Assembly (NCBI GenBank): GCA_029378245.1
Contig: JARKIF010000047.1
Span: forward strand, 62,001-126,000
Reading direction: 5' to 3'
Origin: Roridomyces roridus
Lineage: Eukaryota; Basidiomycota; Agaricomycetes; Agaricales; Mycenaceae
DNA: 64,000 nucleotides
In this document: in pieces, positions 19,327 through 43,967 of the stretch
Layout: every line of letters starts with the position of its first letter
Numbering within the stretch: the first letter of the stretch is position 1
The notes under the pieces: generated by a model
What the model was told of the DNA's origin: nothing
Seen by the model: the letters and a program-made list of their open reading frames with translations, nothing else
The model's database searches: none
Position numbers and translations under genes: made by a program

Positions 19327-19967
19327 GGAGGAGAGAGCGCGTACGTAATCATCACTTGCACAGAACTGCCATCTCTGCCCCTAATTCTCTCGCAATGCAA
19401 GACACACAGCTCCATTCTCTCTTGCACTCCGACGAGCCCCCAGAATTATTCGATGGCAGGGCAGCTGCACGACGCCCGCACTGCTCTCATCCTTCACGGT
19501 AGTCGCGAATAGCACAAGGCCATTCTCTCCCCTCTGCGACGCCTGTCCGAGTCCTTGCATCCGAGATCTGTACAGTTTGGGATGAACCAAATCCCAAGTT
19601 GGGTCTTGAACCACCCATGTGTGCAGCCGTTGGAGGGAAATCGCCATCTCCATTCCGTCGTTGTGGACTTTCATATATTATATGTGGACTACAGATACCC
19701 GTTGGGGCAGCCGAGATGCAGGTTCGGCGCCCGAAAACTCTCGGGGTCAACCTCCGAACTGGATACGGTCTGGGACCAATCTCAGAGACTCGCATCCTCG
19801 AGTACCTCATCGGCCATTCTACTTACCCCATGGAGGAAAAGTTCAGTATCGAAATACGGACAATTTCGATATATATTCTCCTTTCCACTCTTCGCGATCA
19901 AGTCCCGCTGTTACGCAGGCTGTCGCTACAATGGGATGTACACCACAGTACCGTGGACCCGGAAGAA

Positions 19968-20918: not shown

Positions 20919-21021
20919 AATCAATCGACTACTTTCAGACGGCAACTTCTCTAGTGGAACTCATCGAGGCAATCCCATTTCTCGTCTGGGATCTTGGCTG
21001 TGTCAGCCGACGTGGTGTTAG

Positions 21022-21566
21022 TGCTCACTGCTCGTATGTGCTGAAGTTCTTGTGCGATCTGTTCCCACTTCTGATAGTGGTTTTACAGTGCATTCACGCG
21101 GTTCCCTCTAGGGCTGCATGGAATCCGTGGTTGCCCACCTGCCTTCGCCCAGTGACCATTTGGTCCCATACAACCGCAGTCATTATCCGCAAAATTCCTT
21201 TTGTGAATCTTGCAACGCGGGTCTGGTAATTTATGACACCATTGCTGATTACTTCGCCGACGACCGCCAGGTCGTACATGACTTGAGTATTGATCGTTCG
21301 TGTCCTGCGATTCCAGCTTGACGTCATCTCTCGATGCCTGCCAGATCCACGTTTAGGGACGCAGATGCTACAGACAAATGCCTCTGTCAAGAAGCTTCTT
21401 CAAAGCTTCATTCATTGACCTTCATGGAAGAACACTCCGATCCTACGTCAAAACCGTCGCGAACCTGATTTTTTACAACGAAATACTAGAGAAAATCGGC
21501 ATTACATGTTACATCTCTTCTCAGTTCCAGCCAGCAAAACAAATTCCTCCAATTCGAAACAGCACC
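21022..21566. repeat. Duplicated spacer between F-box C and P450 copy 3
   Basis: Homologous to 15849-16311 (direct) and 6025-6618 (inverted). It holds 3-prime untranslated sequence only. The copy near 21480-21540 retains the aacgaaatactagagaaaatc and tcagttccagccagc blocks. Confidence 0.6.
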
Positions 21567-23765
21567 CTACAAAGTACCATCCTGATCTGCCGTGGACTGT
21601 ATCAAAGCCTCCGCATCTTTGGACCGGGGTTTGATAGAGCATTCGAAAGGCTGTGGCATTCTGGTCGTTTGCTTCAGTATTTTGAGAAAAAGTCAACAAC
21701 GGGAAGGCATGCACAAGATAAACCTCTCAAAATATTCGTAGGTTGGTTCGACCAACTCCCCATCCTTTCCTACCGCTTTTTTGATGTCGAATGTGGCGAG
21801 GATGGATGTTATGGTGATCCAGATTGAGGACGCTGCCATGTGCCGTCCGGGACAGATTCTATTTAGTCTCTCGGTGTTGTTTCGCAGGTCGGCGTCTAAT
21901 TCCAACATACCTTCTGCCAAAACCGAATGCTGCTGCTTCGGGCACTTGAATAGCAGGGTTTAATTTCCCGTTCAACAGAAAGCGTTCGGGCTTGAAAGCG
22001 TATGGATCAGGATACAAGTTCTAGCACGTCGTCAGTTCCTCGAAAGACGCTCGATCAGAGTGTACTGACTTCGTCATGTAAGATAGCCCTAACAAACCGG
22101 CGGATGAGGACTGAGTTCCAATGCCGACACTTTACCGCTCACCAAGTATTGGTCATAACTGTCGAGCCTCTCGGAATCCTATACCCTTTGTATTCGTCTT
22201 CCACAGCAATGAAGTGTGCAACACCTGTCGACTCGTTGGACATAATTCACATAGTAGACACGGGTACTTACCAAGTGGTGTTACAGGCTGCCAACGGAGA
22301 ACCTCTCTCACGAGGGCGGAGACATACGGCAAATATGGTTCGTCGTCGAAGTCCGGTAAATGGCCCTGCTTGATGACCGAATCGATTTCTGCTTGTGCTC
22401 TCCTCTGCGCCTCGGGGTTGTAGAGCATTGCCAAGGCAAAGGTGCCCAGCGCCGAAACAATCGTGTCCGTCCCCGCACTATACATAATTGCAGCAGTCTC
22501 TTTGATCGCCTGCTCTTTGTCAGGAAACTCCTCCAGATTTTGAAGGGATTCAGCGGTGAAAGAATACGGGGCGTCCCCGGATGCCTATTTGCATGAGCAG
22601 TGTACCCGATAGATACAACCTCACTCACAATTTTGCGCTTCGCCTCCGCAAATGGTTTCTCCAACATATTCTGAGATAACATCCTACCCTTCCTTGCAAA
22701 CCGTTGGAACGTTAACCCAGCTCCCGGAAACCATGAGGGTATGTATTTCAATAATGGAAACGAATCCTAAAACAAAGATGAAAAATGCATGATTGTGTTG
22801 AATATTTGGACTTACGACGAGAAATTTTCCAGGCACCAGACCCTCTGTAAGAGAAGCAAATGAATCTTCGGCCAGTCTCGTGTATGGGTCGTCTTTTTCA
22901 ACCACGCCGATTCCGTACGCCATACCCATGATGACAATTCCAGTCATGCTGTTAAAATTGAACAAAGATGTTTTGGCAGCGAAGGAGATGGTGCACTCAC
23001 TGTCTCAAGTGAGCCATGAATCTTTCAGGCTCATGAAGCAAGCGCCGAAGAAGTTGGTGTGTGGGTGAGAGTAGTCGGGGGAGAAACTTTTTTGAAGCTT
23101 CGGCGTGAAACACAGTGTGGAATAGGCGCCGCCGAGTTCGCCTGATACAGCACAAAAGTTCAGCATGCAATATTCCAACCACTGGATACTTGCCAGCGGT
23201 CTCCTACGAGACGTGTGAATAAGTGTTCCAAAATTACCTGCATGCATACCATATTTCATTATCGCTGGTGTGAAGTTCAATAATGTCATGGGGAAGAAAC
23301 AGCTGGCATACCAAAGTTGAAATCCCATCCCATCAACTCGTTCGCCATCGGCAGGCGTGGTCTGTGAATCCAGGGACTTGATTGGAACAAGGAAATTTGG
23401 TTGGAGAACTCCCTGACCTGTCGGAATATATAGCGGATCTCTTGTCGAGTAGATTGACCGCCGCTTCCAGGGAGGAAAGAATTATGATCGATCGACCAGC
23501 AATATCCACATGAATAATATCAGAGTCTGTAAGAGAAAGTTGTAATCATCTATGAGGGACCAGTCTGAATACTTGACTTGCCGTAGAGTTTGCTCCATTC
23601 CATATAAACCTTCCAGACGGACACTGAGGGATGATTGAAGAGATTTCCAAGGAGAGGAATCTTGGGCGGGCCGGGAGGCAGGGGCAACCTCGAACGTCTG
23701 CGGAGCAAGAACACCGTCAAGAGTACCGTAGCAAGAAGGATCGAGTTGAGGGGGTCGAGTAACAT
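21567..23765 (-). CDS. Cytochrome P450, copy 3
   Basis: The third copy of the same microsomal P450, intact when spliced on the pattern of copy 1. Start MLLDPLNSILLATVLLTVFLL at 23765; an in-frame ATG nine codons upstream is less likely because the other copies lack it. Visible motifs: LPLPPGPPKIPLLGN, WRTRRRLFHTVFHAEASKK, SAGTDT in the I-helix, EVLRWQPVTPLG, YPDPYAFKPERF and FGFGRRICPGRHMA. It ends with IQSTADQDGTL. Differences from copy 1 include two extra residues in WFPGAGLTFQR and one lost residue at the acceptor before MTGIVIMG. Small exons are at 23250-23264 (15 nt) and 23194-23203 (10 nt), with a GC donor after the latter. Intron 1 appears to use a GC donor at 23581. Confidence 0.87.
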
Positions 23766-23810
23766 GAGTGGTGAACTGGGGATGTCGTCCACGTTCCGGA
23801 CCGAATGGTT

Positions 23811-23821
23811 GCATATTTATA
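23811..23821 (-). promoter_or_regulatory. TATA box of P450 copy 3
   Basis: The minus-strand sequence tataaatatgcaaccattc lies about 46 bases upstream of the ATG at 23765, identical to the element upstream of copy 2. Confidence 0.55.
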
Positions 23822-24619
23822 CAAGTGTCTCCATTGCACCCGCGGGCCATGAGGAGGTTGATGACACTAACTGGGACCGGGTCGATGCACATTGCGCTGA
23901 GATCCGATCTTGGGGCAGAAGGAATGCGGTGGTTGGCCGTAACGATTGGAGCCCGTGTTCCATTCGAGCGCGAACTTTAACAATCTTGAACCACGGGTAA
24001 GATAGGAATAAGTATACCGGGCCGAGAGCGTACGGAATGCACAAAGCCGCTGATGCGAGCCAACGTTGACAGCGCCGCGGAGCCACAAATCATGACGAAT
24101 GTCAAACAATACTTATCTCGCAACATCATAGGAGTCACTTGAGGATCGCGGGAATCTTGAATTACGGGAGACTTTGCGGCGCAAAGAGAGCAGAGAGCTT
24201 ACCGGTGGACGGATGAAATGCTTTCCTCCGAATAGCCCAAGGCTTTACTGAGTTACTTGCAGTTAACACATGTAACTGAAGAGTATTCTTGCGCAGAAAG
24301 AGGAGATGACGTGGGATTGACTGTGTACCCGGAGAGCTGACAGGATTGAATCATGAGAGTCGGCCCAAAACGCTATTCGCTGAGAGTCCGCGAAGCCAAG
24401 TATGAGAATGTGGTATTTTCCGAACGCGAAGCCACGCCACCGCCAGTGAGATTTCAAGCTGACCAGGTCGCCGCAGTACATGACAGAAGAATCAGGTGAT
24501 AACAAAATTAGGAGCAAGATCTGACACAGAGGGTACGGTGTTGCGTTAAACATCCCAGAATTTCGGCCTTAGGGCCCCACCTCCCCTCCCACGTAAACAT
24601 GGACTGCTGAAGACCCTAT

Positions 24620-25110
24620 TCATACACCTTCTCCTGGGCTCTCAGGGTAATACACGTGCGAGGCTGGTCCTGGGTCAAGGGGACCGTTGTACCCCCGTCG
24701 ATATGTGAAGCCAGCGTCCGACCACCCGGCTGCATGTGCCCACGTGCGCCCTCCTTGCTCCCCCTGGGGTAGACTGACAGCTGGGTCAACGTGAGGTGCT
24801 TCTGCTGAGCTCGACGGTGTGCGACTAAGATAGGGCATCGCTTTGAGTCTTGAGAGACGAAGGGCGCCTACGACGACGTGGTCCGAAAGTCGACGCCAAG
24901 ATCGTACCGACGAGCAGAGACCACAGGGACGGCGTGCCAGCAAAAGTAGATATGCTTGAATCTATGGCGTTTCGCGATCTCCGCAGCCGGAGGCACCGTC
25001 CACAAGAAAACCTGCAGCAGCTCGGTTGGGACCGGGAGGTTGGAGGCTCCGAGGTGGGTCGGTGCAATCTACCAGCGACGGTTGGCGTCCCAGACTGAGT
25101 GCATGAGTTC
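24620..25110 (-). pseudogene. Gene remnant, possibly F-box-like, with AAGWSDAG motif
   Basis: On the minus strand one frame reads VPTELLQVFLWTVPPAAEI, which resembles the F-box pattern MPPETLGEIFTWALPSLADL. A second frame then reads TPSLWSLLVG, resembling the family segment TPSLWSLV. A third frame gives PSSSAEAP and AAGWSDAGFTYRRG, shared with the fragment at 2640-2948. The frame changes mean it cannot be a working gene as read. The F-box assignment is tentative. Confidence 0.35.
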
Positions 25111-25188
25111 ATCGGGAGCTAGAAGAGGACAAAGCAGTATTTCATCCCGAGTGCTGTGCGCAAGCTGCAAAGCTTGCGCAAAGCAACT

Positions 25189-25196
25189 GTCAAGGC
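25189..25196. repeat. 8-bp target site duplication, left (GTCAAGGC)
   Basis: GTCAAGGC directly precedes the left end (TAGTGATGTCAAAG) of the large element and is repeated exactly at 43960-43967 directly after its right end. A hairpin-forming palindrome (gcgcaagct...agcttgcgc) lies just outside at about 25159-25180. Confidence 0.85.
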
Positions 25197-25552
25197 TAGT
25201 GATGTCAAAGTTCGGTTCGGTTCGAGTTCGGGTATAACCTGATTTCTCGTCAAATAATCTAAGTTTATGCGAAAACGAACGCGAGCCCGAACTTTTCAGC
25301 AAGTTTCCAAAAGTTTACATGTGAGTTGGAACATTGCATACTAGTTGAGTACGAAGCCGAACCTGGTGAAATTGTGTTTGAAGTTTGAGTGCTTAGTGTA
25401 AAGTTAAGGGCCAACTTTTTTCGCGTGCATAGCCCAACTTCTACAAAACAATGGTGGTGGTCACCCATGGCTACTGGTGGTTTTCCTCGTGTTGAGCCTA
25501 ACTGTCGGTCCTTGGTGGTGGTCAAGTGGTGGTTGGCAATCATTGATGCGCC

Positions 25553-25905
25553 TAGGGCTGTTCGCCGTGCCCGTGACGGGCACGGCCGTCGTTTTGACGG
25601 GGATACCACGGGCACGGACCGTCGCTCGACGGCCGTCGCCTCGTGACCAAAAACCATCAATCAGGCTTGAAGTCGGGGTTGTGAAATGTGCGGCTGGTGT
25701 CCATCGACAAGGTACGGGGCTGCATCAGACGGTCCGGGCCGATTTGAGCGAGATATCGGCTGTTTTAGGTGTCCGTCGACCCGTCGCCGGACGTTTTCGA
25801 CGGAGACGGCCGTCAGAAATGGTCGCAAAACAGTCACGGAACGGGTCGGCGTACCCGTCGACGGGAACCGTACAACCGGCGCGACGGGCACGGCGTCCAG
25901 CCCTA
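25553..25905. mobile_element. 353-bp nested hAT-type MITE
   Basis: The ends are TAGGGCTGTTCGCCGTGCCC on the left and, on the other strand, TAGGGCTGGACGCCGTGCCC on the right. They are flanked by the perfect 8-bp duplication GATGCGCC at 25545-25552 and 25906-25913. The interior is rich in CGTCGAC and GGGCACGG blocks and does not encode a transposase. It lies inside the large element just upstream of the SPT16 fragment. Confidence 0.85.
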
Positions 25906-25985
25906 GATGCGCCTCGATCAGAGATGGCAACAATACAGAACCAATCTCATCTAGTCCCGTCTCCACCTCGGAAGCAGGAGAAGAA

Positions 25986-27085
25986 ATGTTTCGTACCCGT
26001 CTACAGGAAGGAGGTGCACCCGAATGACAAGGAATCTATGACGGATGGCGTACAGCCGCGCAAAACGAGGACTACGCCTCCATTGCCGACACCGACGCAC
26101 TATTTCTCTTCGCAGGGGACCCGGCGGGAGAGGATGAACCCACACGGAAGGGAACTTGTGTCTAGGTGCGACATGCATTGGGCCCCTTTGGAAGGGCATG
26201 TGGCGCTCACTCTTTGTGACTCACAGCAATGGCTCCTCGGTTACGAGTTTCCCTCGACTCTGATTCTCTTTGGCGAGGACAAAGTGACGATCCTGTGTTC
26301 CGCCTCAAAGGGTACGCGTTTGTCGAATTTCCGACGCGTTTTTTGCTGAGTTTTGACAGCCAAGATACTCTCCCAAATTGAGGGCACCTTGGGACCGGTG
26401 CCTGTCGAAATCTTGGCCCAAGCCAAGAAAGAACAAACTAATGACTCGCTCGACCGCTTCTTCCAGCTCTACGCCTCCAAGAAACGCGTGGGGACTCATC
26501 AAGGAAGTCCACCGCGGCAAACTCGTTAATGATTGGAAAAAATTGCTTGAGGCGGCGGACAGCAAGCCGGAACTCGTGGATATGGGCCCTGCACTGTCGA
26601 CTTTCATGGCCGTGAAGGACGCAGAGGAGCTGGTTGGTTGATTTGGGTCGCATTGACGTGCGTACTCACATCCTCTCTTAGGAAACCATTCAAATGGCCG
26701 GCAACCTCACATCGACGCTCCTCAAGCATTATGTTGTAGACAAGCTCGAGTCCATATTGGACAAGGAGTCCAAGATCACGCACGAAGTCCTCGTTGCCCA
26801 AATCGAGGCCAGGCTGGGTTCGGGGGAGGGTGCCAACGCTAAGCCACCGGATCCGAAAGTATGGAGCAAGGGCAAAGGTCTCATAGACGTACATTTTTCT
26901 GTGTTCTATATCGTCCTTTTGCTTAGCGCACTAGGTCGACTGGGCTCTCGTTGAATTCTGCTACCCTCCTATCATCATCTCCCGCTCGAGCAACACTGGC
27001 TATGACCTGCGCTACACCGCGGAATCGACGGACGAAAGCATCGTGCACAAGGGTGTTTTTCTCGTATTTACCCAAGAGCATTGGC
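25986..27085 (+). pseudogene. Truncated copy of SPT16 (FACT histone chaperone)
   Basis: Exon pieces of the Spt16 N-terminal (pseudo-aminopeptidase) domain are readable in order: FRTRLQ, DGWRTAAQNEDYASIADTD, AGDPAGEDEPTRKGTC, WLLGYEFPSTLILF, AKILSQIEG, PVPVEILAQAKKEQTNDSL, LIKEVHRGKLVNDWKKLLEA, ETIQMAGNLTSTLLKHYVVD, VDWALVEFCYPPIIISRSSN, TGYDLRYTAESTDESIVHKG. The similarity stops after VFLV near 27070, far short of the full protein of about 1,000 residues. A stop codon interrupts the first part (26025) and a frameshift lies near 26493 (between KKRVG and LIKEV). Introns are retained, so the copy arose through DNA, not from mRNA. It sits inside the large mobile element. Confidence 0.8.
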
Positions 27086-27189
27086 TTTGGTGTAGGTATC
27101 TCGCATCATAAAACCAAAGCCTTGAATTCTATTCATTTGCTGTACGTAGATACTTCAATAAACAATAAAGTCGTCTCCAACGATCCCTT

Positions 27190-28240
27190 TGAGATCCGGG
27201 TTAATAATGGTGCAAATAGGACGACCAATTTTATCAGCGCGTACCTAGTCTGAGTGATGTCGCGCATAGTGACGGCGGTGTCGGGCGTTGACGACGTCCA
27301 GAAGTATATCGAGTGTCGGGGGCATGTGCAGGAAGTTTCAGTCGCGCTGCTGGTGCCTTGGATTGAGAGATTCACGTTAATAATGGTGGAAATACAAGAG
27401 GATTTGGAAGTACATACCTAGTCTGATTGATGCGGCGCACAGTGACGGCGGTGTCGGGTGTTGACAACGTCCAGATCCATATCGAATGGCGGGGGCGTGT
27501 GGATGGTGTACCACTGGTGCGAGGGGTGTCTTGGATTGAGAGATTTGCGTTAGCAATGGTGGAGATGCGAATGATTTCGCGCGGGTGTACCTATTCTGAG
27601 TGATGTGGCGGACATTGATGGCGGTGTCGGGCGCGGACGACGTTTAGCCACCTGGCAAATGCCGGCGGCGTGTGTAGGCGATCCAGAAGGTGCGGACTGC
27701 GTCCTGGATGGCGGGATTCGAGTCTGAAACGGTAGAGATGCGACCATTCTTGTGAGTGCATCCCCCTTTTGGGTGATGTGGCGGACATTGACAGCGGTGT
27801 CGGGCGTTGACAACCTCCAGACCCGTATCGAATTGCGGGGGCCTATGTAGAGGAATCAGGAGGCGCGGAAAGTGTCCTGGATGGAGCAATTCGGGTCCGA
27901 AATGGATGAGACAGGATGAATCTTGTGAGAGCATGCTGATGTGGCGGATACTGACGGCGATGTCAGGCGTGAACGACGTCTAGCCACCTATTGAATGGTG
28001 GGGGCACGTGCAGGGGATTCAGCAGGGGCGGAACATGTCCGAGATGCAGGAATTCGAGTCAGGAATGGAGGAGATATGGCCAGATTTGCAAACGGGTCGC
28101 ATTTTGGGTGAGGTGGTGGGCAGACGAGATCTATGCACTTGTTGAATGTCGGGGGTGTGTAGTAAACGTCGAAAAGGGGGGGGGACCACGCCGCTATAGT
28201 AGCAAGCCGCGTTAAATAGTGGCTGCTAAGAGACTCTGGA
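27190..28240. repeat. Tandem array of about 173-bp units (array 1)
   Basis: The motif gacggcggtgtcgggcg recurs, with variation, at about 27271, 27444, 27617, 27790 and 27953, spaced 173, 173, 173 and 163 bases. Each unit also repeats gtgatgtggcggacattgac-like and ggcgggggcgtgtg-like sequence. The open frames across it are products of the repeat and differ from unit to unit. It lies downstream of the chromodomain gene, within the large element. Confidence 0.75.
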
Positions 28241-28590
28241 CCACGTACCTTGTGGTTATGTACCCACTCTGACATCTAAACCCAATACTCTCGACTTCTC
28301 CTATACCCTTACACTATATGCTTGGCGCGCTCTTGCGATGGTCGAGTGAGTGCTGTCGGTTGTGCGTTCTGACGTGCTGGAAGGTCCAAAGTGGAAGGAA
28401 GCATCAAGGAGACGTGTTTGGCCTTCCGCCATCTCTCTCATTTTATTGCTTTTATCGAAAACTTGAACTGGATTCGACTGGTATGATACATGTTCACTAC
28501 TCCTCGGCAGTGGCAGCTTCAGCCTCAAATTGAAGTAACATTTCTCTGCGCATATGACTGTTAGCCTCGGAAACGGCTCGGCTTTGTAAC

Positions 28591-31500
28591 TCACTTGTCC
28601 TCTATGATTTTGCTGAAGACGCTCGGCTCGTAATCCGTGCATGGAGGGAACGGCCACTTGTCGAACTCCGTCAGATTCTCCCCCGATATCCACCGCGCGC
28701 CCTCAAATTCATCTGCAGCCAGCTTAGACAAATCTTTTTTGGCCGTTCTGGTCCCCAGGACTATCTTGTCATCGTCTGTGAGGAAATGATCGAGCCACGC
28801 GTAGAAACAAAGGAAAGCTGCTCGAATAGCCGAAGGGGAAGCGTTCTTGTCCGCCAGATTGAAACCTAGGACCTGAAGGCCACGAAATGCACCCTTATCT
28901 TGGTGACTGCAAATCCATTCGGCCATTTCGGTAGCGGAGGGAGGTTGGGCGATGCCAAGTAGAGTCAAATTGTTCGCAAATTGCAGCGCGCCCAAAGACC
29001 CAGCACCGAAGCCGTTGATCCTCGTGTCCACCACCCACTGCTGTGCGGCCACCCACAGAATTCTGGGTGCATCCAAGTTTGTAGGATCTTGGCCCGCGAG
29101 ATCGCCCAGGAGTGCAAGATAGCTGCGCACCACTTTGTCGGAGAACATGGGCACAAACTTCTCACGAACGCTGAGCTTCCTGGAGCCGACAGTGGGATGT
29201 AGACCGTAGTGGTTGCTTGCCTGCCCATAAATGGTGGCGTTGTGGAATTTATAGGTGGGATCCGGTGGGAGAGCGGCACGCATGGTCTCTTCAGCCTCGA
29301 ATGTCAGCACGGCCTCCTCCAGAGTGCGGAAGACCATTCCTTCTTGGCGCAGCTGCATGCGTGCAAGAAATCGGCCGGTCGCGAAGCCTTGGCCAGTACT
29401 CATGAAGACCAATAAACTGGAGATCCCCGCCGCTGTGGTCAGCGACGATGGGGGGATGAGAGATTTCAAGAAGTGAAACCCTTGCAGGTTGGCGCGGATC
29501 GGGTTCATCTGGTCAGGATCATAATGTAGCTGTTTGTAACCTGTGAATCCATTCTCGCCACGCAGGAGTCGACGGTACATGGCATCCCGTGTCTCCTGAG
29601 TCGGTGGATCTGCCCTCATGGACTCGCGCTTTTCTTCAAGTGCTGCACGAATGATGATAGCGCCTACACCAAGGGAGGGTCTCTCCGGCAGGAGGGACGC
29701 TGTCGTGGTAGGAGTGTCGACCTTTTGTTTGAGAGACCTTGTCCGCGAAGTGCTGTTTGCTATTTTGGTCAGCGCAGAGGGCATGAGGAGGGCCGCCGGA
29801 TCATCCCAGTTCTCGTCGCTGATGACAATGCCCAATTGCAGCGTTAGAAGCCCTCTGTGAACAGCGTCTCCAAGCTTCTGGGTAGCGTCTCCAATTTCCC
29901 CTTCTGCCATCCATCCAGCAAGATGATAATCCAAATTCTGGAAGGTATTCGCCTCGTTTCGAATCACAGAACTGGCAAAGGCTGGATCGCGGCCAATCGA
30001 GGAGGGAAACATCCGGCAGGGGCGTCGCAAGAACTGGTACATTTCTCTCGCAAAAAATATTCCCTCTCCTACCGCATCAGCCAAATGGAGAAGAATAGAC
30101 CCTCGGGTTATGCAGCGTGCTCGAACTGCAACAAGGTCATCCTTGGCCTTCTCGCCGCTTAACAACTTGTCGAGTTGCTGCATTGGCGCGAGAAGGAGGC
30201 ACTTGTCCCACAAGTTTGAAAGCCATCGAGCTGCCACAGAGTACACATCCTCGTTGGTTTGGAGCGACACGTTCCTTGGCACATTCTCGAGTGCCATGGA
30301 AGCTCCTCGTTTCGAAGGCAACAGGCCCCAAAGATCCGCTGGAACTCGGGCGTACTGAGATTCTTTCAACGAAGTCAGTGATTGTGCAGCGGGCCCGCTA
30401 TCAATCGTATTCGGCGCGGGGGCTGGGAATTTTCTCTTTTGGCCTCTACGAGTGCTGCCACTGCCCTCCCTACGATCCCTCTTTCGTTTATTTGCCTCCT
30501 TTCTTGTGGCTGCCGCATCGCGCATGCGGATGGTCTGGCAGTCTCGGATAAAACCGACGACGTGGATGACCATACCCGCTAGCTCGGGGAATTGCTCCTT
30601 TAGAATTCTTTCGCCCTGGGATTCCAATGTCTGAATCAACTGCTTAGCCAGCGATGGGCCGAGATGCACAAGCCACTGGTAGGCGGCAACTAAACACCTG
30701 CAGATCTGGGCCTGCGCACCGCGCTGCACAAGGTCACCAACCTCAGAGTGTAAAGTGAGCCCGGCAAGAGATGTCCCAATATTTTCCACGCATGCCATCA
30801 TGAGCTTGGCGAGGTGTGAACTCCAACCCGCCTCCGGTGTGAGTGCAAACTCCAGCTGAAAGCTGATGTCGTTCTGCTGCTCAATTTGAGATAAAATGCG
30901 AGTGGCAATTTCGTGCGGTGTGACATTGATGCTGCTCAGTTGTTTGGGTTTGGCTAAAGCACCTATCAGATCCGCCACTTGTGCGCATTCGCTTTTCAAA
31001 CTGGGAACGTCCAAGAGCCTGCGCAAAAACTCGAGATCAATCTCGGGCGCGATATCCTCTTCCAGGATCTCGTCTATAACTCGCCGTGTGCGGCGGCTAT
31101 TGCGCTTTCTGGTTCCAGCTGCATCCTCGTCATCGGATGTGGGAGGATGCATGACGACATCTGGGTCCTTGTCTAGACCGAGTTTGCGTCTGAAGGATTC
31201 CAGCATAGGTGCTGGGTGTCTGCGCAAACCCTCCGTGAGAATTGTGTTCATATAAAAGTGCAATAACTGACCCGAAATCTTCGTCCCTGAGCCACGAATT
31301 ATCTGAGGCGGGATAGCCTTCCCATTTCACAAGCCACTGACGTTCGCCGTCCTTTGAGAAGCCGGTCAGCTTTCACAAGCGGGGTAGTCCAATCGTTGTT
31401 ACCTTGAATCTCGTGTCAATGATCTCCTCGACAGTGAACTCGTTTGCTTTGGTTTGTTCAGGGGCGCCATCCTCCGAGTCTGAGTCCGACTCCGGGAAAT

Positions 31501-34500
31501 ATTCTGGTCTTTTTGCAAGTCATCGTCGTTTCCTCCCATGGGTCTGCTGATGACCGTCGCTTTGTACACCTTCGGAGGCCGTGGGTGTAGTAGTAGATTG
31601 ACCCGCGGAATTGACTGTGGTGTCTTCAGGCACGGTGAATTCAGAAGCGGAATCGTTGGGAGTAGTATATTGATCCGCGGATGACATGGGTGCAGCAGTA
31701 GATTCATCCGCGGGACAAATTCCGCCGTCTTCAGGTGCGGTCAATTGAGAGGCGGAATCCTCCGGTTCTGACTCCGAAGAATCTGAAGAATACACCGGTG
31801 TTTGTCGTCGTCGTTTCCTCCCGCGGTTGTGCTGATCACCGCGGCCGTGTACACCATCCAACAGTGTAGTCGATGGAGACACGCAATTGTCACTGGCATT
31901 ATCAAGTGCGGTCCCGGTGATAGCATTCGGAGAGGAGGTAATAGCGGCGGCGTTGGTGTTGTTCTGTTCCGCAGAAGAGCGACCAAGAGGAACACTGGCG
32001 TTGCTGTCACTGTAGTATGCCAGGCATTTCTTAGCATTCTCTCCCTGATGAAGCCTACGCCAGCGGTCATTACAGTGAATTGACTTTGAACGATGACAAC
32101 ATACCACCACGTTTCCTGGGGAACGTTGCGAATCTCACTGGATCCGGTGACCAGTACACTCCAAATAATCTGAGGGAAGTCAACGTTTGCGGCCAAAATG
32201 TGATTGTTGCTGACCTCAGACCCTTGCTTATGACGACCAAGGATGTGTTCAACTGTTTGAAAACTCCCACGGCTCAGTGCAGAGCGCAGAACAACAAGAT
32301 TCCGCTCCTTGGGAATTCCGTCGGGACGCTCCGTTGTCTCGGCCAAGCGCCTAGAAATTTTTGCTTGTTGAGCGGTGAACGTAGAGTGGGTCAGTCCCAG
32401 TGGGTACAACGCCAGGATGTCGCGCCAGTAGGCATAATATCCACGATACACGCTCATCATCCTGTATTCATCGTCATCGTCAATGTTGAACGGTGCAGGT
32501 TCAAGTGTTCTTGTCGATCCCCTTTCATCCCGGAATGTGAGCGACGCTAGTAGAGCATCTGTGCTGAGCGTGGAGGTAAGACCACACTGTGCCAAAAAGT
32601 TTTTGAACCCTAAAACTCCCTCCTGCCCAAAACGATTGAAACGACTTCTGTGATCCCCGAGGACAGTTTGACCGTGGGAGGCGTAATATCTGCGACTATC
32701 TGCACGGGGATCTGCAGGGGTGTACAAGAAGCGAAGCGATCGCGTGTACAGGACCTGAGTGCTCCGGGTGGTTGCGGTAAAGCTCGGATACAGTACATAT
32801 CCGCACCGAACGTGTGGCCCATATTTCTTGAACAGCTTGTCCGCATCTTCCATGGACACCATTGAATCCTTCATTTGCTTGACATACGTCGGTGCCGTGC
32901 CGGAGTGGATGTCGTTTGCTTTGAACGATGCAAAGACGACATATTCGTCAGATTCCCGGAGATAGAGCGCCGGTCGCAGAAACATGAATGGCCCCATGTC
33001 GCTGCCCTTGGGAAGGCGCAACAGTAGCACAAAGAGGGTGAACCAGAGCCAGTCGTCTTGGAAGTCGCCGTGGGGCCGTCCCTGAGGTCCGATGGCGTCC
33101 CTGAGCGCTCGTATCTGGACATTTGCTGCGTGGATGTGCTCTCTCAGGTTGAGCCATTGACTCTCATGGGAGCCAGAGCCAGATGCATCAAGTCCGGAGA
33201 GGGACACCGCTGGCATATCCGCCGCACAAAAGTCGAAATTATAAATCGTCGCCGCTGCCGAGCTGTTCAGTTGACAACTTGTCGGTCCAGGGTCCAATCC
33301 ACCAAACGCGACAACATTGTTGTCCAGTCCCACAAACTCCATCAACTCCCATTCGAAACGAGAGATGCACAACGGCATGATAAGCCGATACAGGCGGTGG
33401 AGTATCCTGAGGACCTCCGCAATGTGTTCAGCCTCGGCGGGTGCGTTAGTCTGTACGGCGGGCCCGAAGTGACCCGCTCCCTCGCCTTCGCCATGGGTTG
33501 AGGCGAGATTGAATGACCCTTCGCCATTGTTGAGCCTGTCAGACGAAAGCTGCTCGGATCGCAGATTCACTTGTAGACCAGGGAGTTCGAAGATGGCTGG
33601 AGAACCAGGGGCATCTGCAGTTTCAGCCACACCCCAGGTGAGCTCCAGAAGCCGCGGCATCAATTCGGCGATCTCCTGGCCTTCGTCATACATCTCCAAG
33701 GTCTTGAGACTATGGGCGCATGCAACGGTCACCGCCATGTTGGGGTCCCCGTTGATGTGATGCACCATAGGAATACCGAGCGGCATACGGACCATGCCTG
33801 GAATGGGCTCTGAGATGAACCTGCGAGATACCTTGTCGAATGCGGTCGGGGTGATATTGGGAGGAAGTTGGATGTTGAGCATACGCTGCTTGTCCCTCTC
33901 CTTTGATGAGTAGTGGTACGGAGCCGCATAGCGCCAACCCCGGCGATACACAGGGTCCAGAGCTTCATTGATTCTGTAGGGTGGGGTGTGGGGGTATTCG
34001 CCTGCCTCGGGACGCTCTTGGACAGGGTCGGCCGGATTAAGAATGTCATCGCTTGGTTTCGGCTGTTTAGAAAGCGACTCGACTGGCCAGGTAAAAGCGT
34101 TCAAAGGTGGCTTCAAGGGTCGGCTCCCTTTGTCGGTGATGCCGTACTGCCGAGGCTCATCAGAGGAAGAGTAAACTGGGCGGAGCGGTGAGTCGGTAGC
34201 CGTGGAACGTGAATTTGGAGGAGTTCACCCACCTCCTTCGGTTCCTTTCGATTGGCTATTGTTGACTTCAACAAAAGAAAAGCGATAGGGTTCAGGTGTC
34301 ATGTGTCTGGATTAGAGGATTGGTTTCTGGAATTGTGGATTAGTGTGCGTGGTGGTAGAGTGCAGATGTGCGTCCTCACCCAGCGGGACCGTAGAAGAAT
34401 TGACAGATACGCAATCCCTGTCAGACGCGCTAGTACCAGGAGCTAAGTTTTAGTTCAGCAGATATCCCTTCCCAACTCGTCCGACAAACTCACCTGAACG

Positions 34501-34804
34501 AACAATCCCATCTGTTTCCCGAGTGGGAGCAGAATAGCCCATATCTGTATGAAATTCAAAGAGTGGTCAACGGAGTAAGTGCTAATTTCTCACCTTGTTG
34601 TTGATTTTCAGATTGAGAGCCGGAGATGTGGTGTTGCTGCAGAGATTCTCCACTCCGGAGGGCGTTGAGTTGCGATTGTGTAGCGTCTGCAAACGCCTGA
34701 AGACTCTGCCCGTAGCCGGATTGAGCGCCTGTGAGCTTAAGTGATTGGAGTTGATGTAGGAGAGCCTCCAGTTGGGCTGCGTTAGATGGCTCAAGAGGTT
34801 CCAT
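28591..34804 (-). CDS. Giant chromodomain protein of the mobile element
   Basis: Hand splicing joins 34116-32105, 32054-31570, 31503-31403, 31351-31272 and 31219-28591 into 5,307 nt (1,769 codons including stop) with one open frame. At 34116 there is no ATG, so further 5-prime exons exist; a good candidate first exon starts at 34804 (MEPLEPSNAAQLEALLHQLQ) with a donor at 34593. In order: a 670-residue part of unknown fold (PPNITPTAFDKVSRRFISEP; DFQDDWLWFTLFVLLLRLP), a divergent chromo-like segment (VEHILGRHK to QETWW), an acidic serine-rich linker with GRKRRRQ nuclear-signal-like runs, a clear chromodomain (VEEIIDTRFK, QWLVKWEGYP, SDNSWLRDEDF), then about 870 residues of unknown fold. The exon 2 to 3 junction was chosen because reading through gives a TGA at about 31531. 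A chromatin-targeting role is inferred from the chromodomain. Confidence 0.6.
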
Positions 34805-36897
34805 GGAAGTAAATTCAGCAAAGAGACGAGGAACACTGCCACTAATGGCAGAGGATCGAGTAGCCGGATCAAAATGATGGGAGAACGTACCCCTGCCATG
34901 TAGCCTCGCTCCCACAATGTGAGACCTGGATTTGAACAGACAAACCTGTCCTTGGCACAATTATAAGACTTCCTATAGCGCCAAATTTTCAGTATTGAGT
35001 GTTGTGGTTCAAGGCACCGATACAACCAATTTGTAAGCAGACTGATCCGTAGATCATGTGATAGGCAACGTCACCTGCTCCTTCTCCTTCTCCTTTGCTT
35101 GCTGCAAGCATCCGTCAACTCTCTTCGCTCTCCCTCCTCTCCGTTGCAGCTGAGCGGTGTGCCTCTAGCAACGCTACAGCTCCATCCAGAGCCCAGCAGG
35201 GATACAACTTAAACGCCCCTGCTGAACGGCGTTGCCTCAATCTTGGTCCCCGAACGGCGTGGCAAATCTCACTGAGCCTGGCGCACCAGCACTCCTACGG
35301 AACGTGAATGACATCGGGGTGCCGGGACCGTCAACACCGCCGTCTGCATCGGTCGAGTCTGACTAGATATTTTCTGTGGCGTCAGCAAAGTAAGTGTATC
35401 TTATTCGATTTTTGCTCCTGTTGGCTGACACGCATACCAGCCCGGACGTATGGGTTCCCTGCTTCAAATGGGAGTGTGATTTGCCTGACGGGACCGTCGA
35501 CACCACTGTCCCCATCAGTTAAGTCCGACCAGACCACCTTTTTCGGTGCAGAAGCAGAATTGTGAGTGAATCTCACCTGACTCTTGTCCGTCTTTGCTGA
35601 CACCCATAGCAGCATAGACGTGGGGTTCCACTACATTGGACATGAATATGAATCGAGTGACAGGACCGTCGACAGCTGCTGTCCGCATCGATCGAATGCG
35701 GGTATATCACTTTTGGGTGCTGAATCAGGAATGTGAGTGCATCTCACTCGATTCTTTTTCGTTTCGGCTGGCCGACACGCTTACCAGCGCGGACGTAGAG
35801 GTCCCCTCCATCGCCCGTGAATGCAAATCGGGTGATAGGATCGGCGACACCGCCGTCCGCATCCGTCCACTCTGACTATGTCTCTTCTGTGACTGCTGCA
35901 TTAACAAAGTGAGTGTATCTTATTTGATTCTTACTTGTTTCGGCTGGCTTGGTTATCCTCTGACATGCGGACAGTGTCGTTTCCGACTGCCACATTTCGG
36001 CTCCCCATCAGCATCGCTGACATCAGTGATGCCAAAGCACAACGACATTTGTGCATTCAGCGAGTCGCACCCCATCGCAAGCACCACCGGGGTCTCCGGG
36101 CTGAGTGTGGGCATGTCCTCCGCTGCTTTCTGTATAATCGGTGACATCTTCCTGGTGCTACAGAAGGAGCGTGGCGGTGCCGGTGATTCTCTCAGGCAAG
36201 GCCGCATTCACTTCCCTCCCTCACTAAGCTCATTGAACGTTTTGTAGCGGTGCTGGGTAGTTCATGGATAGATACGCCATCCGTCCCTCGCGTACAGTAC
36301 ACCTAGTTATTGTACAGACGCCTACAAATATTCAAAGCCTCCGTCCAAATATGCTTCCGCACTGCTAGGTCAAAACCGCTACACTAAATAACAATACACT
36401 TCAGTGATGGCCCACGCGACAGGGCTGCAAACGAGCTCTGCGCACGTCGATGGTGGAAACGATCGCATGCGAGAATCTCTTGCTCTCCAGTTTAAGGCGT
36501 GCAGTAGAAACATGGAGAGAGGAAAGTCAAGGACATAGAAGCCGTACCTGCCATTGTGTAGAAAGAGTTGTGGGTGTTGGTGGTGAGCTGGAAACGCGAC
36601 GCGTTTGTTTGTTTGAGACAAACATACACATCAAGGCGTCGCTTTTCTCTATAATCATGATAATTTCCGCATAATCAGCAGCTCTTCCTTCCCTCCCTTC
36701 ACCATCCAGGATGGAGATTTACCCGTATATGCAGGGCTCAAGTCTGTTCTTCTGATTTTGACTCTCTTCGCGGCGATTCTCATATCTCTGTAGATCCAGA
36801 TTTTTCCTCCCTCGGGTCTGCGCGCCATGTTACCTGCACAATTGTAGTCGCGAGTGGTAGCCCAGACCTCCGACCTATCACATACAATTCGGAGCCC
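34805..36897. other. Region between the chromodomain gene and the next gene, with repeat array
   Basis: Divergent promoters of the minus-strand chromodomain gene and the plus-strand gene at 36898 should lie here. Array 2 occupies about 35300-36100. No additional gene is supported. Between 36600 and 36890 the frame of the next gene is partly open (DPDFSSLGSARHVT, TIVVASGSPDLRPITYNSEP), so that gene probably begins upstream of 36898. Confidence 0.5.
35300..36100. repeat. Tandem array of about 172-bp units (array 2)
   Basis: The motif ggaccgtc(g/a)acaccgc(c)gtc recurs at about 35324, 35490, 35662 and 35838, spaced 166, 172 and 176 bases. Accompanying repeats include gtgaatctcac and gctgacac. 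The period equals that of array 1, and the core cgacaccgccgtc is the reverse complement of array 1 sequence, so the arrays look like the same repeat in opposite orientation on both sides of the chromodomain gene. Confidence 0.7.
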
Positions 36898-38032
36898 ATG
36901 CCGCTCCTCGAAAGCTTTATGGTGGACCGGATTGGGGTCTGTGCCTTACGAATCGAGTCTTTGGTCTATGCGATGCGGGAAAGTATCCCTCTGTCGGCAG
37001 CGCCCGTCCCGGCTGCGGTGCAGAATGTGCTGTCCGCGCAAACTGCAGTGGACATCGCGACAATGAGGGTTCCGTTTTTCAGCGGCCGCGACTGGCAAAG
37101 CACGGAGTATGGCTTCCGGATGCTGCCGTCCTGCATCCCGGCGAGTGCAGAAATGGTCGTGCCAAGCGGCAGCCACGATAATGTCTCTCTCGTCTTTGCG
37201 ATTGACCTTGAGCATCCAAAAACCATAGATTTTCTTCGGATGTGGCAGGTCACGGGTATCCAGCCGGAAACTCATTTCATCTGCATTTTCTTCCCCCCGG
37301 TGACCTTAGCTGCACTGGGCCCGGTCTTCTCCAGAAACCCTTCCCCTTCACCGAGCATCCTATCAGGGTATAGCCCGCTCAGCGGCAGTCCTGCCTACCC
37401 CCGCTCCGAAGGCTCAGCTGGCGGAGCCGACGTTCCGCCCATGGACTTCGGACAGCAGCTGACACCTGTCAACTTCATTCGATGAGGCGTGTACCATCCT
37501 GGGCATCTCTCGGGACGAGGTCGAGAAGGGACGCTACAGGGCAGACACCGCACACAAGGCGCTGCTTTTCATGGTGCAGAACTGGGCAGCATCCACCCAC
37601 ATTTTGGCCAAGTTTTGTGTTTCGCAGTTGCCGGAGCACACATTCCCTGGGGGGTATGTTGCCCGCCGCACATCCATTCTGACAAGCCTAGGGTGGGGCG
37701 AAATTTCGTTCAGCAAAAAAACCAAGTGGTACAATTGGGCCTCCCAAGCAGCCTGCCGTTCCTGGAAACAGGACCCTGTCGCCGGTATGTCGCATCCACT
37801 ACAGTGTACTTTCATTTTCTCATTCATCTTAGACTCCGATACTGCACTGTACGAAAAATGGCGGGGCATATGTTTCCTTTGGAAACAGGGTGGGCCCTTG
37901 ATAACGGGCAAGTTACCCTTGGAATCGTCTGGGGACAGGGATGAGAGGGCTGCAGCCGGTCTAATACAGAGAGACCTCGAGGCGTCGAGAGTTGCAATCG
38001 AAGCCCGCCTTGCCCCAATGCTCTCTTCTTGA
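36898..38032 (+). CDS. Unknown protein of the mobile element
   Basis: I do not recognise this protein. The open frame starts at or before 36898 (MPLLESFMVDRIGVCALRIE) and runs to PVNF near 37477. There a single extra base seems to break it, since removing one T of the tt pair gives NFIDEACTILGISRDEVEKG and a frame that continues through KALLFMVQNWAASTHILAKF, PGGYVARRTSILTSLGWGE and KWYNWASQAACRSW. One intron (37785-37832, gtatgt to cttag) leads to DSDTALYEKWRGICFLWKQ and a stop at 38030-38032. About 375 residues, with a serine/proline-rich middle (NPSPSPSILSGYSPLSGSP). It sits 160 bases upstream of the integrase-like gene on the same strand, suggesting it works with it. Confidence 0.5.
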
Positions 38033-38191
38033 TTGTGATGCATACATTGACTCTATCACTATCATTTGTTACCCTGCTCTCGTTTCTTGCTTTTTTGTCA
38101 CGTAGCTACAATAATGCCAGTGACATTGGTTCCCTGACTAGTCCTGCCTTATCTGATCGGCCGTCACTTTCATCTTCTTCGTCCACCCCAA

Positions 38192-40037
38192 ATGGCAGAT
38201 TTGCTACCAGCCAGTCTCCTCGATGCATTCTGCACCCACTTTCATGCCTATAAAGCCCAGGTTGACGATGCAATGATAAACTCAACCGACGAAACCGTGT
38301 TGCTGCGACTTTTGGACGACATCCGGGTGTACGCAGGACTTGTCGATGAGGTACGATACACCATCCTCCCAATCTCGAAGAAAGCTCAGTTGATGAATAG
38401 TATTCACACATATTTCCTGCTCAAGAACTGGAGATTCTCCGGACAAATCTGGCCCTGATGCTAGGCGACCTCGAAGTACAATATCGGCAGACTGCAGATA
38501 CATCGCACCATGGGCGACCAACGGTCATCGAAAGAGTTTACACTGGCCGACCGGGTCGTCCCCGCTACGCAATAGACCCCGACTTTCTGCAGTTTGCTCA
38601 CGAGCACCGTTCGACGTCCGGTATAGGCCATTTCCTGGGTGTTTCGCGCGGCACCGTGCGATCAGCGATTCTACAGCAGGGATTGGCTGAGCCGCAACCG
38701 GCACCATTCTATGATCCTCATTTAGAGGATGCTGATGCAGGCGAAGACGACATCTTGGACCCACAGCACGACATTCCGCCCAATCTACCACCTGATATCC
38801 CAACAGGGACTGGGCATATTTCAGAAATATCGGACGACGACCTTGATAGTCTCCTCTTGCGGCTGCGGACTCATTTTCGCCGTGCCGGTCTCAGCATACT
38901 GGACGGGCTGCTCCGGCGTCTGGGTCACCGTGTACCCCGTGAGCGTTTCCGCGAATCACTCAGCCGAATCGATCCAGTGCAGCGCGTGTTTCAGCGCATA
39001 CGAATACGCCGCCGCGAGTACAGTGTTGCTGGACCCAATGCTCTGTGGCATCATGATGGGCAGCACGGTGAGTTCGCTGTTCCTCGGCCTTTGCAGCCTC
39101 TTACTCACTGAACATCCTTAGGATTAATTCGCTGGGGGATTGTGATTCACGGCTTCATTGATGGCTACTCGCGCCTTATCACAGGGCTGCGCGCGCACGA
39201 CAATAACCGCGGAACGACAGTCCTTCACCTTTTTCTGGAAGCGGCACAACTTTATGGTGTCCCATCGCGTGTGAGGGGTGATCACGGGGTCAAGAACATC
39301 GAAACGGCAGGTGTGGATGGAGACGCACTGCGGTTTTCGGCGGGGCTCCTACATTTGGGGCAGGTGTGTATCTATGAATCATCGGTCTGGACCTGTACTG
39401 AACCTTTTCAAATTTATAGAAGCATACACAACGTGCGCATCGAGCGACTGTGGGTAGATGTCACAGCGCAAATTGGCGCGACGTGGGGAAACCACTTCAT
39501 GCTTCTGGAGCTCCACCATGGCCTGAACGTCAACAACTCCCACCACATATGGCTCCTCCATTTTCTGTTTCTGCCTACTATAAACGACCAGCTAACTCTG
39601 TTTGTGGGGGCCTGGAATGAACACCGAATCCAGATGCGCCAGCGGACCTTCCCGCTCTCCCGCTGACTTGTTTGGGTTTGATTCGCTGGTTCATGGTGTA
39701 CGCGGTCATGCATTGGAGGCGGAGCTGACCGTCGAGGAGTTGGAGGTGTACGGGGTCGATTGGGAGGCGCTCAACAACGACAGCCTCTTGGAGTCGAACA
39801 GGACCAACAACACGAACGACACAGACAGCTTCGTCTTGGGTCGGACAGGTCGGTGTTCTGCAACACCTCAACGAAGTACCTGTGGAGGCACCCTCAGGGC
39901 CATTTGGTCCTGTGGACATGGCAGCTCTAGAAGCACGCATAGCTCCATGGCGAGGCCTCGCTTCCAATGAAGCAGTCGTCCAGGCGTGGACTTATGGATT
40001 AGCGGTTTGTCGTACCATCAATGGAAATTTATTCTAA
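38192..40037 (+). CDS. D-D-E integrase-like transposase, apparent frameshifts
   Basis: The start is MADLLPASLLDAFCTHFHAY; introns are 38351-38433, 39068-39121 and 39364-39419. After an N-terminal helical part comes a helix-turn-helix (GRPGRPRYAIDP, FLGVSRGTVRSAI), then the catalytic core: first Asp in LWHHDGQHG, second Asp in VRGDHGVKN, Glu in HNVRIERLWVDV, with IVIHGFIDGYSRLITGLRAH and LELHHGLNVNN between and after. The C-terminal tail has RSPADLFGFDSLVHGVRGHA and TVEELEVYGVDWEAL. This is the integrase-core family common in mushroom genomes. Three single-base insertions (near 39311, 39639, 39829) break the frame as read; each duplicates a neighbour base, so they may be sequence errors. The TAA is at 40035-40037. 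Confidence 0.7.
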
Positions 40038-40257
40038 ACAAATTTTTCATTTTTAAATGTGAATGGGCTTTTCCGAGTTGTGTGAGGGCGTCAAAACCAC
40101 TACCAAATGGGCATTGAAAGTGAAATGAGACGGTTGCTTATGACCAACAGAAACCAAATTTCTATTGGCACCCAATCGTAACAATGGCAGTGTTAACTAA
40201 AGGAATTTAATGTAGATGTAGCTACGCAGGAGATAGGATGAAATAAAATGATGTCTG

Positions 40258-43200
40258 TTAGGTGAAGGTATGAGTGTCCCCAATCGCCCCCAAGGACTGG
40301 CAGAGCAGCCAGTGATGGAGAAATTTCCGCCGAGATGCGGGCTCGACCCCCGTGTATGCGGCCTGGGCCGCACGGAGCAGGAAAGAGGCGGGGATTCGGG
40401 CCTGCTGGAAGCAGGTGCGGTAGGAGATGGTGCCCGAATCAACCAGCGCACGGCGCATTTCCGTGTCATGCCCACCAAGATAAACAGGGTCGTCGTCGTC
40501 AACGAGCATGATCTGGGAATGACTGGATGAGCCGTGGAAACCAGGAGAAACAGTGAACCATCATACCGAGATGCCAGAACTCCCTGCCGGTAAGAATGGC
40601 TGTCCTGTGACCGCCCACGTTAACATTTGCGCCCGAAAGTTTGGCGAGTCTACCCGAGTCAAATCCGCTGACTCGGTGAAGTGGGGCTTGCAGGCCTCGA
40701 ACAGTGCGGGGCACGGTACACCAGTCTGTTCCAGGTAATCCTGAAACAGGTCTGCCAATGTCTCGCCACCCATGGCTTCAACGATCGGGCCTGCAAGAGG
40801 TGACGGGGGGAAGACGAGTCGGGGGATGAGGCTGTATGGGCCGACGAGGGAGGCCATGACCTTGGTGAGGAATGCCTCGGAGCCGCCAGAGGTGTTGCGT
40901 ACAAACTGCAAAAATGTTAGGAACAGAAATATCAGCAATCGAACGGCATACCTTCGGGAACTGGAACCCATTGCGACAGGTGAGCCTGAAGCCCCGAAGC
41001 AGCCACTCCATGTCCTTGTGCCGAGGACCTTGGGAAGCGACGACCGCCTTATACACCATCTCGACAGCAAGGGCATCGTGCATCCTTTGGTCGCGGTTCT
41101 CGATCGCTTGGATCTAAAGTGACAGTGTTGAGCATACATCGGCAGTCGGGCGAAAAGCAATACATACTGGCAGATCCATATATGATGCAAGGTGGCCGAC
41201 AATGGCCGGCTTGTTGACATTGCCAGCGGGGCCGGCGGTTTTCCATGCGCTTATAATGGCGCGGAGGGCGGGGTGCCATTCGCCGATGAACCCAGGGTGC
41301 AGCGCGCGGAGGTCGCCATCAGTGGAGCAGAAATTGCAGCAGGCAAACATCGACGGGATCGACAGCAGTGCCTCGTATCATGAGCAGCGCCCACAGGGCA
41401 CCGGCGACGGCAATGTCATGCTGCCTCCCCGCAGAAAGATAGTGATCCCCAAAGCCGAGAGAAAGAACACAGAGGAGGGAGAGCTTGCCGTCAAAGCGGG
41501 GTGTGAGCCATCGGCTGCTGCCAGCCATGACCTTCGAGAATGCTTCTTGATAGACGTCCCGGAGGACCCCTTCGCCGAGGGAACGCACAACCCCATCCCC
41601 GCTGTCGCGCTCTTCTGGTGTGCGCGGGTAGTAGCTGTATCAAATGTCAGTGATTGGCCGTGGTCGAATATGTAAGGAGCTGCTTACAGGATTGCATTCT
41701 GGTCCTCGGATAAAACGTCGGTGAAATCGTTGGCATCGACACACCGACCAATGGCAGCGAGGAGCTCATCTGCAGCCTCAGCAAGTGTGTCACCGCTGTA
41801 CATGACACGGAGCGGGGTGTTTGAAGCGCCCCTCGCCGCCACATAGACTGAAGACTCAGTGAAAGCAGGATGCCTGCCAGCGTGACGCAGGCGGCCATGG
41901 CTGTTCGTCATCCCAGATGGAGGCAGGGAGATGGGGCAGTCTGGTTTCGGCTACGGGATGGACCACCGACGGCCTAGATAAGGTGAGCTCAACGAAGCAG
42001 ATGGCAGACGAGTCAGCTTACCACCACATCCATTTCCTCATCATCTAAATCAGAAAGGTTGGCGACGTCGCCTCCATCGCATGACGATGCACCATCCTCA
42101 TGGGGCCAAGGCACAAATTCACGATCACGGGGAAACACCAAATTAATGCGGCGGGGGAGACAATGGTGAAGGCGTGCTTCTTGGCCGATTCCCGGGAGCG
42201 TGAAAGTGGCGGAAAGGAACTCTTGCGACATAACTAAAGTGCTGTCAGTACTAATGGTGAAGCTGAAAATGAAATGAACATACCCCACTGGATACAAAAG
42301 TAGGACTCTCCGTCGACGGTTTCAATGCACAGACCGGGGATGGCGAAACGAAGCCGACTGGCCGCCATGTCGGCCAAGGTGGATTGGGGAGGGAGGGGGC
42401 TACGGCAAAGACGGATCTGATTATCGCTCGGTCGTGCTACACCTCGGTTACCGACATAGAGGGGGATAAGAGGCATGCCCTCGTGGGCAAGCAGTGCAGT
42501 TTCGGCGGGGTGGTCAACATTTATTCCGCGCTCGCGGAGGACGTCGACGAGAGACCGAATGTGTGCGGTAACAGGTGTGGATGCAAGAGGACTGTCCTCG
42601 ACAACAAGCCCAAAGCGACGCATGTGTGCGAGGAAGGAACCGCGCAGGAACCGCATAAAAAAATTTCCTCGTTGTCCTGCTTGAGACCAATGTCAGACCT
42701 GGTGTTAGATAGCAAAAATTGGACATACGACAGGGGGTAGGATGACATTGAGTGTACGAAGATATGTTTCGGTTCCGCGCACGAAGAGACATGAATTTAT
42801 GGTTGGCGGGCGAGGTAGGCTGGGACGGGAGGTGGCAGCAGGGCGAGCGATGGGGCTAATATTGGCACGGGCATGACGCCGTGTCAGGGTGGGGACTCGA
42901 AGCTGCGAGGCGCCCGAGTGTGCCAGTCGTGCTTGGTTAACGATTGAGTTAATGTTGGCAGCAGGTGCTGCATTCGACGGTCTGGGTAGTGGCGGAAGCT
43001 CCAGGCGTAGAGACGACTGTTGAGGCCTCAAGCTCTCGTATGGCCCGATTGGCGCGGCTCCTTCCGTGGCGATGGGAACCTGGCTGATGGTGGAAGCTGC
43101 CGGCGCACCAGTGCCGGTCGGAGCAAGTTGGATCGAGGGGTGAGCTGTCGCTCGCGGCAGAGTCGGGGATATAGTTGGTGCGAGAGGTTGCTGGCTGCCC

Positions 43201-43271
43201 GTCATAGCTGGAGGCTGGACATGATTTTGCAGGAATTGAAAAAAAAGACTGGCGAAGCCCTGGGCGTCCAT
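40258..43271 (-). CDS. Unknown multi-exon protein of the mobile element
   Basis: I do not recognise this protein. Eight exons can be chained from MDAQGFASLFFQFLQNHVQ at 43271: a proline/alanine-rich N-terminal part, then MRFLRGSFLAHMRRFGLVVE, MSQEFLSATFTLPGIG, KPDCPISLPPSGMTNSHG, VYVAARGASNTPLRVMYSGD, YYPRTPEERDSGDGVVRSLG, CNFCSTDGDLRALHPGFIGE, IQAIENRDQRMHDALAVEMV, FVRNTSGGSEAFLTKVMASL and, last, MLVDDDDPVYLGGHDTEMRR ending LGAIGDTHTFT. Two places need attention: a run of seven T near 42660 between NEEIF and MRF, and ccc near 41355 between AVDP and SMFACC, each with one base too many for a continuous frame (the first can alternatively be solved by a different splice). CxxC pairs (ACCNFC) hint at metal binding. 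The gene is convergent with the integrase. Confidence 0.5.
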
Positions 43272-43959
43272 CGGATTGCTGGAGGATTGTCAGCAAATTT
43301 CAAGCAGAAAAACTCGCAGTGGCCAGCGTGAAAGTACTCACGACGGGCTGGGGAAAACGAGTGGCTGGTAGACGCGATAAACGAGTGACTGAAAGAGAGA
43401 GAGAGAGAGGAACGGCGGGAGGCAGCCCATCCAGCTAAGTATACTATCCGACAGTGGCCAAATTAGCCGGTCAGTGGGCTGCCAAAGTCACCACCGGCTG
43501 GCCAAGGTCGACCACCAGTCGCTGGCCAGAGGAAACCACAGGTACAGCCGGCAAACCACCGGCTGACCACAGGTCTGCAAGACCACAACACCATTAATAA
43601 ACTTCCGTCCTCGTTGACCTCTTGAACTTCATGTTGCGGCAGAGGATTGGTGGTCAGAGTTGGTCAGAGTAAAGGTTTGGTTATTCTTGTTCGCATTTGT
43701 CTATACAATACAACTTCAAACTACGCGCTCGATTTTTTGATGAAAACGCCTGTCATACAAATCATGAGAAAATCATCAAAAACAGCCAGTTTCAGGTTCA
43801 AGTTCAGTTCGGGTTCGAACTTTTCGGTGACGGCTGAACCTCGAACCTGAACTTCAGGTTCGGTTCGAACATACGCTGAGCTTTGAACCTGAACTTCGTG
43901 GTCAGTTCGGTTCGGTTCGAGTTCGAACCGTTTACTCGAACCGGACTTTGACAACACTA
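43272..43959. other. Right end region of the large element
   Basis: It contains a gagagagagagag run at about 43388-43400, a patch of short ctggccaa/accggctg repeats at about 43450-43580, and from about 43785 the GGTTCGAACC-rich subterminal zone that leads to the terminal inverted repeat. No gene. Confidence 0.6.
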
Positions 43960-43967
43960 GTCAAGGC
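43960..43967. repeat. 8-bp target site duplication, right (GTCAAGGC)
   Basis: Identical to 25189-25196; directly follows the right terminal CACTA of the large element. Confidence 0.85.

Follow-up and report, generated by a model that had tools for sequence, protein, structure and literature searches.

The window analysed here is a 64,000-nucleotide stretch of the Roridomyces roridus genome (C412:62001-126000 in an assembly of 90.8 Mb and 501 contigs; contigs are cited by our own handles), and our subject is the 18.8-kb block within it that the original prediction, made from the letters alone, described as one giant hAT element. We read this block, with a probability of about 0.8, as an 18.5-kb IS3EU-like transposon lying inside two remnants of a hAT-type miniature inverted-repeat transposable element (MITE) of ~626 bp, into which it was likely inserted by its own integrase; its cargo is a gene for a predicted TET/JBP dioxygenase, joined to a chromodomain in relatives. 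Such a nested insertion is ordinary in itself; the lesson is that perfect outer duplications do not prove joint movement of everything that lies between them, and one apparent giant hAT element is removed.

The outer hAT-type MITE

The outer features described by the original prediction are indeed of hAT type. The 8-bp duplication GTCAAGGC is present on both sides (25189-25196 and 43960-43967, 8/8 identical), and inverted ends beginning TAGTG were found (24 nt, 92% complementary, 25196-25219 against 43937-43960); TAGNG ends are a hallmark of hAT elements. The end pattern TAGTGNTGTCAAAGTYCGGTTC, with at most one mismatch, occurs 56 times in the genome whereas its reversed control does not occur (0 matches), so it stands above chance. 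An empty site with a single copy of GTCAAGGC, which the prediction had proposed to look for, exists on contig C9, where the sequence reads AAGTGTCAAGGCGCGCCG and the block is missing. C9 is 98% identical to the right flank of the window over ~2.0 kb; on the left it is 98% identical to 15801-19301 and 83% overall to 20982-25196. The left flank (15801-25196) has a local duplication that is different in the window and in C9, and because this complicates the comparison C9 is only presumed to be the other haplotype of the region. As to the GGTTCG/GAACC-rich zones that had been reported at both ends, the right one extends over ~200 bp but the left one over only 36 bp, because most of the left part of the MITE is gone.

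Copies with the same hAT ends were counted as distinct complete copies shorter than 2 kb, by a script run over the fetched loci of the end pattern. There are 19 such copies, 18 of 604–635 bp and one of 1387 bp; 15 are flanked by perfect 8-bp duplications, one by a 7/8 duplication and three by none that is recognisable. The interior genes of the block were found in 0 of these 19 copies. The outer remnants and the 604–1387-bp copies are non-autonomous hAT-type elements (MITEs), and the claim that the whole 18.8-kb block moved as a single giant hAT element is rejected because same-end copies without the interior genes are precisely what its author had named as evidence against it. No hAT transposase domain was found in the block (Pfam, six frames, E <= 0.05), as had been noted. 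Elsewhere in the genome, weak Dimer_Tnp_hAT matches of 25.8–27.7 bits lie ~0.8 kb inside right-type ends on C57, C424 and C460, all three of which share one flank; with hmmscan the C57 piece gives a weak match (20.9 bits, cut-off 21.4). Right-type hAT ends with shared flanks are seen at C57:1097057-1110583, C424, C460 and C162, and it is possible that these loci are remnants of the MITEs' autonomous partner.

The inner element and its probable insertion into the MITE

The interior of the block has termini of its own. The left terminus, TATAACC (25233), is sharp and common to C1, C457, C279, C68, C79 and others, and the right one, GTCATA (ending at 43757), is common to C1, C457, C279, C13, C85 and C458; their inverted match (19 of 27 bases) was reached by none of 20000 random pairs taken from the element. 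A copy at C1:1796738-1823210 is 96–99% identical in pieces, carries extra insertions and is without hAT ends. Duplications of 6 bp flank this copy (GCTACG) and shorter relatives on C457 (CCATCC) and C279 (GAAAAG), that is, they occur at all three other sites of the family with both flanks read (C85 has the same flank as C279, and only one end was read for C13 and for C458). The interior, with its own termini, has moved alone to C1, which again contradicts a giant hAT unit. TATRAC ends also border the integrase loci on C483, C179 and C112 and those on C212, C334 and C135. The normal transposase had been reported missing; this holds for the hAT type, but a gene for an integrase-type (rva_4) transposase is present. 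In the part of Kojima 2023 (PMC10045372) that was available to us, TA..TA ends are a constant feature of complete IS3EU families, and 6-bp duplications a usual one. Because of its TA..TA ends, the 6-bp duplications and the integrase-like DDE transposase (rva_4), the inner element fits, as far as its sequence goes, an IS3EU-like transposon. KDZ (Zisupton-type, 8-bp duplications) was also considered for the interior and dropped, since the interior ends, the 6-bp duplications and rva_4 do not fit it; Pfam six-frame scans of the block contained no KDZ transposase.

The left junction between MITE end and inner end occurs only in the window (33 matches, all scored; one on C112 crosses the junction but shows no MITE end), and the right junction between inner element and MITE remnant reads GTCATA followed by CAAATCATGAG. 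In comparison with four MITEs of 625–626 bp, the inner element replaces exactly 388 bp (positions 37-424), and no 4–8-bp repeat flanking it was found in the window. Three steps would lead to this arrangement: (i) insertion of the MITE, which duplicated GTCAAGGC, as is seen from the duplication and the empty site, (ii) insertion of the IS3EU-like element into the MITE, the 6-bp duplications of such insertions being seen elsewhere, and (iii) an adjacent deletion, starting exactly at one inner end, that would have taken 388 bp of the MITE together with one copy of the 6-bp duplication. Adjacent deletions are an established behaviour of transposase-type recombinases, and we infer one here from the exact breakpoints (36/425). 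Insertion followed by adjacent deletion is likely the simplest account of both the 388-bp loss and the absent 6-bp duplication.

Alternatively, the inner element could have been caught between MITE ends elsewhere and the whole 18.8-kb block then moved by a hAT transposase. Such a composite agrees with outer ends that are flanked by a perfect duplication of 8 bp, and with the single copy at the empty site, and large cargo-bearing hAT-like elements are in print (ToxhAT, ~14 kb, in the portion of the published account available to us). We nevertheless consider it unlikely, since the left junction is unique among the 33 matches, the interior moves alone elsewhere and the left MITE end is only 36 bp long, against a GGTTCG-rich zone of ~150 bp in related MITEs. 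Two IS3EU-family insertions in the same MITE (positions 36 and 424) that recombined to leave one element with mixed flanks would explain why the breakpoints are exact at the two inner ends and why the 6-bp duplication is absent; this is distinctly improbable, as it requires two independent insertions in the same orientation within 400 bp, to which nothing else points. That the inner element is filler DNA, copied in while the gap left by a hAT excision was being repaired, with its own integrase uninvolved, would account for the loss of the MITE interior without a 6-bp duplication but is very improbable, because filler would hardly be expected to match both termini of an 18.5-kb element exactly.

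The predicted TET-like gene and other contents of the inner element

The TET-like gene of the inner element is split in the window into two open reading frames (ORFs), the parts of which are united in one predicted protein in P0003 and P0004 from the same species (Table 1). The product of the P0002 ORF is predicted to be a TET/JBP-type dioxygenase: its structural model has a TET/JBP-type double-stranded beta-helix fold, and the HxD...H triad is present in 23 of the 24 rows with letters at all three columns (29 rows aligned), P0027 being the exception. A chromodomain, for which the window has a match below the Pfam cut-off, is above cut-off in the relatives P0003, P0004 and P0005 and is precomputed in 7 of 30 homologues of P0002; judging from these sequences, the TET-like domain of the window is likely joined to a chromodomain. 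Among named protein matches, the family is confined to Roridomyces and Mycena.

We tentatively propose that IS3EU elements of Mycenaceae carry a self-targeting eraser of silencing, that is, one predicted protein in which the chromodomain reads heterochromatin and the TET-type domain demethylates the DNA of the element. The chromodomain would bring the protein to silenced chromatin, where the TET-like domain would oxidise 5-methylcytosine, and expression of the integrase would become possible. If true, a single transposon gene would combine a reader of heterochromatin with an enzyme of the TET type.

The DNA of the TET gene is up to 71–77% identical to C334 and C21, whereas the integrases are only 42–49% identical, and the TET-chromodomain gene has the integrase gene on one side in C334, C21, C112, C483 and C179 and on the other side in the window and C1. 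Because the side of the integrase differs and the integrases diverge more than the TET gene does, it looks as if the TET-chromodomain gene had gone from one IS3EU lineage to another. Imperfect repeat arrays with a period of ~172 bp each (27242-28075 and 35303-35948), mutually inverted by eye, flank the TET-like gene.

The integrase matches rva_4 with 146 bits and rve weakly; in the C1 copy its frame stays open beyond the position that matches the break in the window. With frame breaks in its integrase as well as in its right-hand gene, the window copy is probably defective and no longer autonomous. The right-hand gene (40258-43271) belongs to a family common to Mycena and Favolaschia with a conserved C-terminal RTC motif. 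Its C-terminus may resemble that of HECT ligases; Pfam gave 0 families at E <= 10, HECT or other, and a PDB profile search 0, and the model of the protein is poor (pLDDT, the predicted local distance difference test score, 35.8). The nested 353-bp MITE is not in the C1 copy, which has the empty site, and has other copies of up to 100% identity; the SPT16 fragment is also present in the C1 copy.

Table 1. Positions of the features of the block in the window
Feature	Position	Strand	Remarks
Left 8-bp target duplication GTCAAGGC	25189..25196	.	Made by hAT-type element; empty site on C9
Left hAT-type MITE remnant, 36 bp	25197..25232	+	Begins TAGTGATGTCAAAG; all 36 bp match MITEs L073, L074, L077, L045
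Inner IS3EU-like element, 18.5 kb	25233..43757	+	Own termini TATAAC...GTCATA
Inner left terminal inverted repeat	25233..25259	+	19/27 bases match right end
Nested hAT-type MITE, 353 bp	25545..25913	.	TAGGGCTG ends; 8-bp duplications GATGCGCC at 25545-25552 and 25906-25913; by eye
SPT16 (FACT subunit) gene fragment	26032..27065	+	96% identical to C480:278806-279842
TET-like dioxygenase / chromodomain / helical C-terminal gene	28591..34804	-	5' end ~34804, 5' exon by eye; split into ORFs P0002 and P0001
P0001 ORF, 911 aa	28591..31326	-	Without Pfam domain
Weak chromodomain match	31280..31430	-	20.3 bits, cut-off 25.1 (Pfam)
P0002 ORF, predicted TET/JBP-type dioxygenase domain	31741..34224	-	HGD residues 385-387, H440
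Two overlapping open frames	36664..38032	+	Without known domain
Integrase-type transposase gene (rva_4, PF24764)	38192..40037	+	Frame break near 39660; ends by eye
Gene of family P0033-P0042	40258..43271	-	At least 3 frame breaks in reading
Inner right terminal inverted repeat	43731..43757	-	Pairs with 25233..25259
Right hAT-type MITE remnant, 202 bp	43758..43959	+	
Right 8-bp target duplication GTCAAGGC	43960..43967	.	Flanks block 25197-43959

Relation to known elements and enzymes

The outer remnants share with hAT MITEs the 8-bp duplications, short terminal inverted repeats beginning TAGTG and the lack of coding capacity; unlike them, the window copy is split, misses 388 bp and holds an 18.5-kb insert. 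ToxhAT, a hAT-like element of 14 kb that carries cargo in wheat pathogens, likewise has a large gene-bearing block between hAT-like ends, but, as far as the portion of its description at hand goes, it differs from the window in that the interior here has its own termini and moves independently. The TET/JBP dioxygenases CcTET, TET2, NgTET1 and CMD1 have the predicted fold and the HxD...H motif in common with the P0002 product; their identity to it is only 8–13%, and the window protein is longer, with a likely chromodomain and a helical region downstream.

TET-carrying IS3EU elements are already known. In the part of Kojima 2025 (PMC12730594) available to us, they come from seven species of Pucciniales (rusts) and from the truffle Tuber indicum, and an alpha-kinase gene is present in every case; its main text names neither Mycena nor Roridomyces, and 'chromo' appears there only in a reference title. 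No alpha-kinase was found in the inner element by Pfam, and no published description of a TET-chromodomain version of IS3EU was found in the literature searched, on which the chromodomain-TET gene of Mycenaceae is a new version. With the published elements the window element shares the integrase-like DDE transposase, the TA..TA ends, the 6-bp duplications, the large size, the accessory genes and a TET/JBP-type gene beside the transposase. It differs in its ends (TATAAC..GTCATA here, TAYGG..CCRTA there) and in the third gene, which is the alpha-kinase in the published elements, and the TET-like domain of its relatives, unlike that of the rust and truffle elements as described in the same part of that survey (PMC12730594), is joined to a chromodomain. 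A gene of this kind in Mycenaceae, a family that the main text of the survey does not name, would offer a testable case of fungal DNA transposons evading silencing based on methylation.
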